Positions 11,731 through 13,179 of a DNA stretch of 34,863 nt are shown in pieces. Both the position numbers and the translations under genes were made by a program. Numbering within the stretch: position 1 is the first letter of the stretch; every line of letters begins with the position of its first letter. Under the pieces are notes generated by a model, which worked only from the letters and a program-made list of their open reading frames with translations, did not search any database and had not been told where the DNA came from. This DNA is from an uncultured Acidobacteriia bacterium (GTDB lineage: Bacteria > Acidobacteriota > Terriglobia > Bryobacterales > Bryobacteraceae): assembly GCA_903882645.1 (NCBI GenBank), contig CAIRXZ010000285.1, positions 1 through 34,863 of the forward strand. Direction: 5' to 3'.

Positions 11731-12156
11731 ATGGTGATCACTCGCAAGATCGAGTTCTCGGCCAGCCACGTTTGCCGCAATCCCGAAATGTCGGAGCCGG
11801 AGAACCAGGCTCTGTTCGGACTGGAGGCCAACCCTCGCGGACACGGGCACAACTACGTCGTGGAAGTGAGCGTACGAGGCGATCCCGACGCTGTCACCGG
11901 CATGGTCATGGACCTCAAGGAGCTCCAGGAGATCCTGAATCGCGAGGTGGTGGGGCCTTACGACCACCGGTTCTTGAACTACGAGACTCCCCCGTTCGAC
12001 CGCGTCATTCCCACGGCCGAGAACATCGCCCACGACATTTGGCGCCGCGTGGCGCCGTGCGTGGGCAACCCGGTCCGGGGGCTGTATGCGGTGCGCGTCC
12101 GCGAAACCCCGGATCTGTATGTCGACTATTTCGGAGAGACTCCATGTTCCGCGTGA
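11731..12156 (+). CDS. 6-pyruvoyltetrahydropterin synthase paralogue with Glu in place of catalytic Cys (PTPS-III-like)
   Basis: A 141-residue PTPS-fold protein acting on 7,8-dihydroneopterin triphosphate, the FolE product. Zinc ligands are His13 (FSASH), His38 and His40 (GHGHNY). The pterin-anchoring Glu is in RVRETPD, and the Asp78-His79 pair is in YDHRFLN. At the catalytic Cys position (human GKCNNP) it reads GLEANP, with Glu32. This Cys-to-Glu change is the hallmark of PTPS-III, which makes 6-hydroxymethyldihydropterin directly and replaces FolB in folate synthesis in Plasmodium and several bacteria. The gene is the first of a three-gene operon; its end overlaps the next paralogue by 13 bases. 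Confidence 0.85.
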   Translation: MVITRKIEFSASHVCRNPEMSEPENQALFGLEANPRGHGHNYVVEVSVRGDPDAVTGMVMDLKELQEILNREVVGPYDHRFLNYETPPFDRVIPTAENIAHDIWRRVAPCVGNPVRGLYAVRVRETPDLYVDYFGETPCSA

Positions 12157-12605
12157 CGCGCCGCTACCAGTTCGCCGCGTCGCACCGTTTGAACGCGCCG
12201 CAACTGAGCGAACGGGAGAACCGGCGCGTGTACGGCAAGTGCAATAATCCTTACGGGCACGGCCACAACTACGTCCTGGAAGTGAGCGCGCGCGGCCCGC
12301 TGGACCCCGCGACGGGGCGCGCCGCGGACCCGGCCGCGCTCGACGAGCTGGTGATGCGGCACGTAATCCGCCCTTTCGACCGCCGGGATCTGAACGCGGA
12401 GGTGGAGGCGTTCGCGCGCGTGGTCCCCACCTCGGAGAACCTGGCGGTCGAGATCCGCCGGCGTCTGAGGGTGAACTGGACCGCCGCTTTTCCCCGCGAG
12501 TGGCCGAAGCTCGACCGGGTCCGAATCGCCGAGACGGGCAAGAACATCTTTGAGATTGGAGCCGATGAAATCGAATCGCGCAGTGGTGAAGGCGATGTCC
12601 CATAA
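12144..12605 (+). CDS. 6-pyruvoyltetrahydropterin synthase paralogue with Cys but no catalytic His
   Basis: A 153-residue PTPS homologue that keeps the Cys motif almost as in animal enzymes: GKCNNP at Cys33, then GHGHNY. Zinc ligands are His14, His39 and His41; the anchoring Glu is in RIAETGKN. The conserved Asp-His of the catalytic triad reads Asp79-Arg80 (PFDRRDLN), so proton transfer should be impaired or altered. It overlaps the upstream paralogue by 13 bases and the downstream folE by 41, so all three are coupled. It may be a specialised lyase, a queuosine-type enzyme (QueD-like) or a partner of the first paralogue. No queC or queE is adjacent. Confidence 0.82.
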
Positions 12606-13179
12606 GAGCGCCGGGCAGTCCCTGGCGCCGCAGGTGAGGGAGATCCTCGCCAAACTGGGCGAAGATCCCGGACGCGAGGGCCTCCTCCGCACGCCCGACC
12701 GCGTGGACCGAGCCCTCAAGTTCCTTACGAGCGGCTACGGCGTGGACATCCGGAAGATCCTGAACGGCGCGCTCTACGAAGTGAAGTACGACGAGATGGT
12801 GCTGGTAAAGGACATCGAATTCTTCAGCCTTTGCGAACACCACCTGCTGCCGTTCTACGGCAAGGTGCATGTCGCCTATCTGCCGCGCCAGCGCGTGATC
12901 GGCTTGAGCAAGCTGCCCCGCATCGTGGACGTCTTCGCGCGCCGGCTCCAGATCCAGGAGCGGCTGACCCAGGACGTGGCGCAGACCATTCAGGAGGTGG
13001 TGAACCCTCTGGGCGTGGGCGTAATCTGCGAGGCCCGCCATTTCTGCATGATGATGCGCGGCGTGGAAAAGCAGCACTCCGGCGCCATGACCAGCGCCAT
13101 GCTCGGCGCCTTCCGCGACCGCAAAGAGACCCGCGACGAATTCCTGGCGCTGGTGAACCACAGGAGCAACGGCTTCTAA
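12565..13179 (+). CDS. folE: GTP cyclohydrolase I
   Basis: FolE converts GTP to 7,8-dihydroneopterin triphosphate, the substrate of both upstream PTPS paralogues. From ATG 12565 the product is 204 residues. Zinc ligands are Cys90 and His93 in [10 protein letters not shown] and Cys161 in [30 protein letters not shown] is the family signature. The 12565 start has GGAG a few bases upstream. A TTG at 12550 and an ATG at 12595 are alternatives; the conserved part starts later, so all are possible. The gene overlaps the preceding one and ends the operon. Confidence 0.93.

Follow-up and report, generated by a model that had tools for sequence, protein, structure and literature searches.

Two overlapping PTPS paralogues of Acidobacteriota divide the residues of one catalytic triad and are very probably unlike subunits of a single enzyme

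In homohexameric 6-pyruvoyl-tetrahydropterin synthase (PTPS), each active site is composed of Zn ligands and a Cys from one subunit and an Asp-His from another. A 1995 paper by Burgisser reportedly described the PTPS catalytic triad as intersubunit in its title, and papers of 1994 and 1999 on the rat enzyme are said to place the Cys in one trimer and His89 in the opposite trimer. The partners of the Cys in the triad of rat PTPS are Asp88 and His89. The two trimers are joined head to head, with each site located between three monomers, according to PMC7546909. Rat numbering is used here as the PDB chain position plus four, which gives Zn histidines 23, 48 and 50 and Cys42, in agreement with PMC10767420 and PMC2229834.

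The rat enzyme belongs to type PTPS-II, with the motif CxxxxxHGH, within a family (COG0720) that is common to all of the enzymes considered here. PTPS-III, found in Plasmodium and as a bacterial bypass of FolB, has the motif ExxHGH, and enzymes with the hybrid PTPS-I/III motif CExxHGH serve both folate and queuosine, as described in PMC5041015. Heteromers that require a paralogue in addition to the catalytic subunit, such as metformin hydrolase MetCaCb and the trypanosome AdoMetDC with its prozyme, belong to other enzyme families, and among the heteromers with an inactive or divided subunit listed in a literature search there was neither a pterin enzyme nor a triad divided residue by residue. 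Searches of the open-licence literature, outside which most subscription papers lie, yielded neither a heteromeric PTPS nor an Acidobacteriota PTPS pair.

The DNA analyzed here (the window) is a stretch of 34,863 nt from the genome of an uncultured Acidobacteriia bacterium, a 5.27 Mb draft with 99.3% completeness. Gene 1 (11731..12156, + strand) is an ORF with an ATG start encoding 141 aa, and gene 2 (12144..12605, + strand), also with an ATG start, encodes 153 aa; the two overlap by 13 bases. The folE gene, encoding GTP cyclohydrolase I (12565..13179, + strand), is the sole PF01227 match in the genome, and its start overlaps gene 2 with either the ATG at 12565 or the alternative ATG at 12595. 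There was no ORF of at least 80 aa on the same strand directly after folE at this locus, and no short-chain dehydrogenase (SDR) gene was seen in the window. Both proteins matched PF01242 (112.9 bits for gene 1 and 82.3 bits for gene 2, with a cut-off of 22.4), and their matches to rat PTPS 1b66 (E 3.5e-29 and 2.6e-27, respectively), which is the closest solved sequence to both, settle the fold of each. The genome contains three PF01242 matches, namely, the pair and one gene on another contig (C89).

Alignment to 1b66 placed Glu32 of gene 1 (codon GAG, 11824..11826, + strand) at the position of the catalytic Cys42 and Asp78-His79 (11962..11967, + strand) at the position of Asp88-His89, within the gene 1 motifs GLEANPRGHGHNY and DHRFLN. 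In gene 2, Cys33 (codon TGC, 12240..12242, + strand) is at the Cys42 position, and the Asp-His site reads FDRRDLN, with Asp79-Arg80 (12378..12383, + strand) placing an Arg at the catalytic His. The Cys-Asp-His triad is complete in neither chain, and gene 1 and gene 2 together have all three residues. The two substitutions, each with the other triad element retained, and the mutual overlaps of the three genes had been noticed in the sequence-only reading of this DNA and were confirmed by the alignment and the coordinates. The likeness to rat PTPS extends to the Zn His triad, the CxxxxxHGH motif in gene 2 (gene 1 alone fails it, with E for C), the Asp-His in gene 1, and a triad that would be intersubunit; the difference is that the rat enzyme is a homohexamer with all of the residues in one chain, whereas here the triad is divided over two chains.

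The distribution of the pair was evaluated in 151 class genomes. Gene 2, used as the query, had matches in 122 genomes, of which 118 carry the pair; the other four, with a QueD-type gene only, were set aside (G031, G051, G114 and G138). The main alignment included 111 of the 118 pair genomes, five were read later (G009, G026, G033, G040 and G103), one (G123) conforms and was read after the count of 188 given below and is not included in it, and one (G145) was left out. In G145, gene 2 is split over two frames near a contig end (locus L126, 3258-3990), which is a frameshift or an assembly error. The 111 class pairs, 79 pairs from named GTDB contigs (from the best 80 loci of a longer list, the remaining locus being a single gene), and 25 pairs from a phylum search gave 215 pairs, and removal of 27 duplicates left 188 non-redundant pairs, including four from a family outside the class (f27). 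One record titled Betaproteobacteria (L242) contains an Acidobacteriota-type pair and is probably mislabelled or a mixed MAG.

It was found that genes 1 and 2 are together in every class locus read, apart from the G145 locus with its broken gene 2. The folE gene is downstream of the pair in 107 of the 111 class loci (the other four stop at contig edges) and within 700 bases of the gene 2 start in 104 of these 107. The pair is an old operon and not a local oddity, and the conservation of this operon across the class, together with the residue partition in all 188 pairs, goes beyond chance. An SDR gene related to the one behind folE in genome G147 was present in 25 of the 111 loci, chiefly those of families f5 and f10. 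The SDR near folE is a generic SDR by NCBIfam profile, and so its identity as a sepiapterin reductase is a guess from context.

The catalytic residues of the 188 pairs were then compared position by position. Gene 1 has the Asp-His in 188/188 pairs and gene 2 has the Cys in 188/188 (111/111 each in the class subset), and no pair among the 188 had lost Asp-His from gene 1 or Cys from gene 2. The reciprocal positions are variable: the gene 1 Cys was kept in 109 pairs and lost in 79 (C 109, A 42, E 17, S 5, G 5, N 5, D 2, L 2 and T 1), and the gene 2 Asp-His was kept in 117 of 186 readable sequences and altered in 69 (DQ 13, DR 9, EH 7, RY 6, DE 5, GH 5 and others). In Terriglobus roseus DSM 18391 (L284), for example, gene 2 carries Ala in place of the His. 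Both sites were altered in 41 of the 188 pairs and neither in 80. Two other residues, Arg24 and Asn137, go with the Cys side, with R in 187/188 gene 2 proteins compared to 11/188 gene 1 proteins, and N in 185/185 readable gene 2 proteins compared to 0/188 gene 1 proteins. The Zn ligands His48 and His50 were retained in both genes across the 188 pairs, and Glu133 was present in 188/188 gene 1 proteins and kept in gene 2 where readable. These results strongly support the complementary losses proposed in the sequence-only reading, in that the Asp-His of gene 1 and the Cys of gene 2 are invariant while the partner residue decays. Relatives whose gene 2 has Asp-His had been named as evidence against that proposal; such relatives do occur (the 117 above), but in our reading gene 2 is simply undecayed in these pairs, and they do not refute a heteromer. 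The four f27 pairs (G165, G178, G190 and G213), which have both residues in both genes and Leu for Asn137 in gene 1, are an early stage.

On a tree of the 188 pairs with the active-site columns left out, parsimony required a minimum of 4 state changes at the gene 1 Cys and a minimum of 23 at the gene 2 His (undirected). Loss of the gene 1 Cys was associated with loss of the gene 2 Asp-His in a Fisher test that ignores phylogeny (odds ratio 3.17, p 0.0004), but phylogenetically independent pairs on the 188-pair tree gave no support for the association. Therefore, a correlated timing of the two losses was rejected, and our claim is one of exclusivity of position and not of linked timing.

The partition also bears on the idea that only gene 2 is catalytic and that gene 1 is a pseudoenzyme with a regulatory or stabilizing role, in which the Asp-His would be structural only. 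The Cys-side residues are indeed in gene 2, and inactive paralogues are found in known enzymes (metformin hydrolase and the trypanosome prozyme), but the Asp-His is altered in 69/186 gene 2 proteins as opposed to 0/188 gene 1 proteins. Furthermore, the Asn of DHxxLN was present in 111/111 gene 1 and 108/109 readable gene 2 proteins of the class pairs, and so structure alone does not explain why the Asp-His is kept in gene 1 only. We regard this explanation as extremely improbable.

The Glu at the gene 1 Cys position had been taken in the sequence-only reading as typical of PTPS-III, in which case gene 1 would form 6-hydroxymethyl-dihydropterin and bypass FolB, and gene 2 would be a separate weak PTPS. 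A profile search of this 99.3% complete genome yielded no FolB match, whereas HPPK, QueC and two pterin-binding-domain matches were present, and a Cys-to-Glu change gives the PTPS-III activity in Plasmodium, as stated in PMC2229834. The lack of a FolB match is as the sequence-only reading had anticipated for a bypass. The gene 1 sequence is EANPRGHGH, with the Glu six residues before HGH; with this E-x5-HGH spacing, the Glu takes the place of the Cys in the PTPS-II motif, and ExxHGH is absent. Nor is the site conserved as Glu: of the 79 Cys-less gene 1 proteins, 42 have Ala here and 17 have Glu. In the class sample, in which FolB was above cut-off in 30 of the 151 genomes, Glu was present at this site in 6 of 8 pair genomes with FolB compared to 3 of 103 without, such that 6 of the 9 genomes with Glu have FolB, which is the opposite of the bypass prediction. 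Folate bypass by gene 1 was therefore rejected on the basis of the motif, the variety of residues, and the spread over FolB-positive genomes, and we consider it very unlikely.

The third paralogue, on contig C89, fits the missing FolB better. It reads CENVHGH, which is the hybrid CExxHGH motif and also fits the CxxxHGH of QueD, and it passes the cut-off of the QueD profile TIGR03367 (105.7 compared to 89.25 bits), whereas gene 1 (67.5 bits) and gene 2 (42.0 bits) fall below this cut-off and have longer Cys loops. In a sample of 72 class genomes in which the third paralogue or the sole PTPS-family gene was read, 43 of the 50 genomes without FolB have CExxHGH, compared to 0 of 21 with FolB; the one genome set aside has a sub-threshold FolB match and a third paralogue with CExxHGH. 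This distribution indicates that the third paralogue, and not gene 1, tracks the missing FolB, and it is the better bypass candidate, by a correlation that lies within one class and partly follows families. Seven FolB-lacking genomes are without CExxHGH (G008, G017, G025, G050, G057, G061 and G121). In three of these (G050, G057 and G121), in which FolB gives no match and the third paralogue is without the Glu of the hybrid motif, the Cys site of gene 1 is occupied by Asp or Glu, which gives slight room for gene 1 to act in folate synthesis locally. Three others (G008, G017 and G025, all of family f9; loci L156, L157 and L158) have no FolB match and a PTPS-family gene reading CMHPHGH, and no CExxHGH paralogue was present among the genes read, which do not include a second match in G008. 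Two genomes (G133 and G137; loci L154 and L155) have FolB and the pair, and no third PTPS paralogue at E 0.001.

A search of the phylum outside the class matched 46 genomes: 14 with a split of the residues, the four with intact f27 pairs, 21 complete one-gene genomes, G209, G469 and G328, G486 (cut by a contig end), and three that were left out of the reading (G371, G400 and G492). In 14/14 split genomes, a domain with the Cys is without an intact Asp-His, and the Cys-less domain or domains retain the Asp-His. The arrangement of the genes varies. Double fusions are present in family f24 (G162, G263, G340, G354 and G397) and family f17 (G155), triple fusions in family f86 (G476 and G494), unlinked genes in families f44, f76 and f88 (G309, G240, G201, G323 and G399), and an adjacent pair in family f63 (G291). 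The two triple fusions each have three PTPS domains in one frame followed by an SDR gene (L359, 1524-2915, - strand, 463 aa; L360, 1834-3060, - strand, 408 aa), with Asp-His and no Cys in domains 1 and 2, and Cys without an intact Asp-His in domain 3. The folE gene is directly after the f24 fusions in 4/4 checked (G162, G263, G340 and G397) and directly before the f17 fusion, whereas the unlinked genes that were checked had no folE next to them. Several Cys-less domains are also without a Zn ligand or the pterin Glu; the unlinked Asp-His partners (L323, L325, L327, L329 and L356) have Tyr for the Zn ligand His48 and a changed Glu133, with the Asp-His kept, which indicates that the partner's own half-site cannot work.

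In a domain tree that leaves many of the deep forks open and has long branches for some of the fusion domains, the Cys halves of families f44, f76 and f88 cluster with one-gene enzymes (100/97), away from class gene 2, and class gene 1 forms one clade (99/99). By these positions, the split probably arose more than once.

These arrangements can be set against the possibility that each gene forms its own homohexamer and catalyzes a different reaction, gene 1 with Asp-His and no Cys and gene 2 with Cys and no His, with the linkage due to a shared pathway. The retention of His48, His50 and the readable Glu133 in both genes means that both proteins could bind zinc and pterin. However, there is no consistent substitute at the lost positions, as noted above the two genes occur together throughout the class loci read (G145 with its broken gene 2 excepted), and in the fusions and triple fusions a single full Cys half-site is joined to one Asp-His donor or to two. 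The Cys-less domains elsewhere that drop the Zn ligand and Glu133 and keep the Asp-His are also unexpected for a separate zinc enzyme. Two independent homohexamers are improbable in our view.

As controls, we examined PTPS genes other than the pair. The third paralogue has Cys and Asp-His in 72/72 class genomes; the search pattern included the Cys but not the Asp-His, and every locus fitted it. One-gene PTPS-II relatives retain both Cys and Asp-His in 22 of 24 genomes, these being the 21 complete phylum genomes, Robertmurraya (complete), G469 and G328, where one-gene means at a limit of E 1e-17, at which a very divergent partner could be missed. The two exceptions break the rule: the single gene of G469 (L357) has the Cys together with Asp-Cys, and a search of that genome at E 1e-17 gave no partner, although its family, f44, otherwise has unlinked split pairs, and the single divergent gene of G328 (L370) has neither Cys nor Asp-His. 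Among 17 single-copy relatives, three are without Asn137 and two without Arg24. Genome G209 (L318) has a complete PTPS-II and, about 1.6 kb away, a copy with neither Cys nor Asp-His, and this second copy fits a plain pseudoenzyme better.

Because the triad is intersubunit, the best reading is that the products of genes 1 and 2 are the two different subunits of a single PTPS-II-type 6-pyruvoyl-tetrahydropterin synthase, and on the sequence comparisons we think it highly likely that they form an obligate hetero-oligomer. Composite sites in such an oligomer, as proposed in the sequence-only reading, appear strongly supported by the 188-pair partition and by the same split in fusions and unlinked pairs. 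From the residue partition, the operon, the fusions and the mostly intact one-gene relatives, we infer a physical hetero-assembly, its geometry, its catalysis and its product as follows. After gene duplication, sites of mixed origin would suffice, with gene 2 giving the Zn-Cys half-site and gene 1 giving the Asp-His, and the residues of the reciprocal site (the gene 1 Cys and the gene 2 Asp-His) would then decay. The simplest geometry would be one trimer of gene 1 and one of gene 2 stacked head to head, and this mixed hexamer would have three sites with the Zn, Cys and Glu of gene 2 and the Asp-His of gene 1, as well as three incomplete sites. This is the simplest assembly needing both genes, and it would explain the presence of one of each in the fusions. 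The pair probably makes 6-pyruvoyl-tetrahydropterin, which together with folE would give a route from GTP to dihydroneopterin triphosphate to 6-pyruvoyl-tetrahydropterin, and the SDR beside folE in some relatives may reduce the product towards a biopterin-type cofactor. The supply of tetrahydrobiopterin to phenylalanine hydroxylase was considered and rejected: PF00351 has no match in this genome and matches in 29 of the 151 class genomes, and so the pair is not tied to this enzyme.

Several observations count against the heteromer. His48, His50 and Glu133 are all present in 188/188 gene 1 proteins, which indicates that the gene 1 half-site is not simply dead; the 80 pairs with both residue sets could work as homomers; and G469, G328 and G209 depart from the rule. 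A broader reading, which we put forward tentatively and consider rather unlikely as a whole, would have the intersubunit triad split between paralogues several times in one phylum as a graded series, with the Cys-less Zn site of gene 1 retained in the class because it has taken on another function, for example pterin sensing; the enzyme would then be a heterohexamer in which three sites are catalytic and three are regulatory. The series in this joint reading would run from an intact single gene through an intact pair, a half-decayed pair, a fully complementary pair, and a double fusion to a triple fusion in which two domains donate Asp-His and one holds the Cys.

If the hetero-oligomer of genes 1 and 2 is true, it would be an unusually clean natural experiment in the change from a homo-oligomer to an obligate hetero-oligomer by complementary loss, with intermediate states existing in living relatives, and the residue-by-residue partition would show on which side of an intersubunit site each residue acts. 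The annotation would be corrected as well, in that neither gene would be fully active alone in the lineage of the window, and it would set the folate bypass, which is probably due to the third paralogue, apart from the pterin made by the operon of gene 1, gene 2 and folE.
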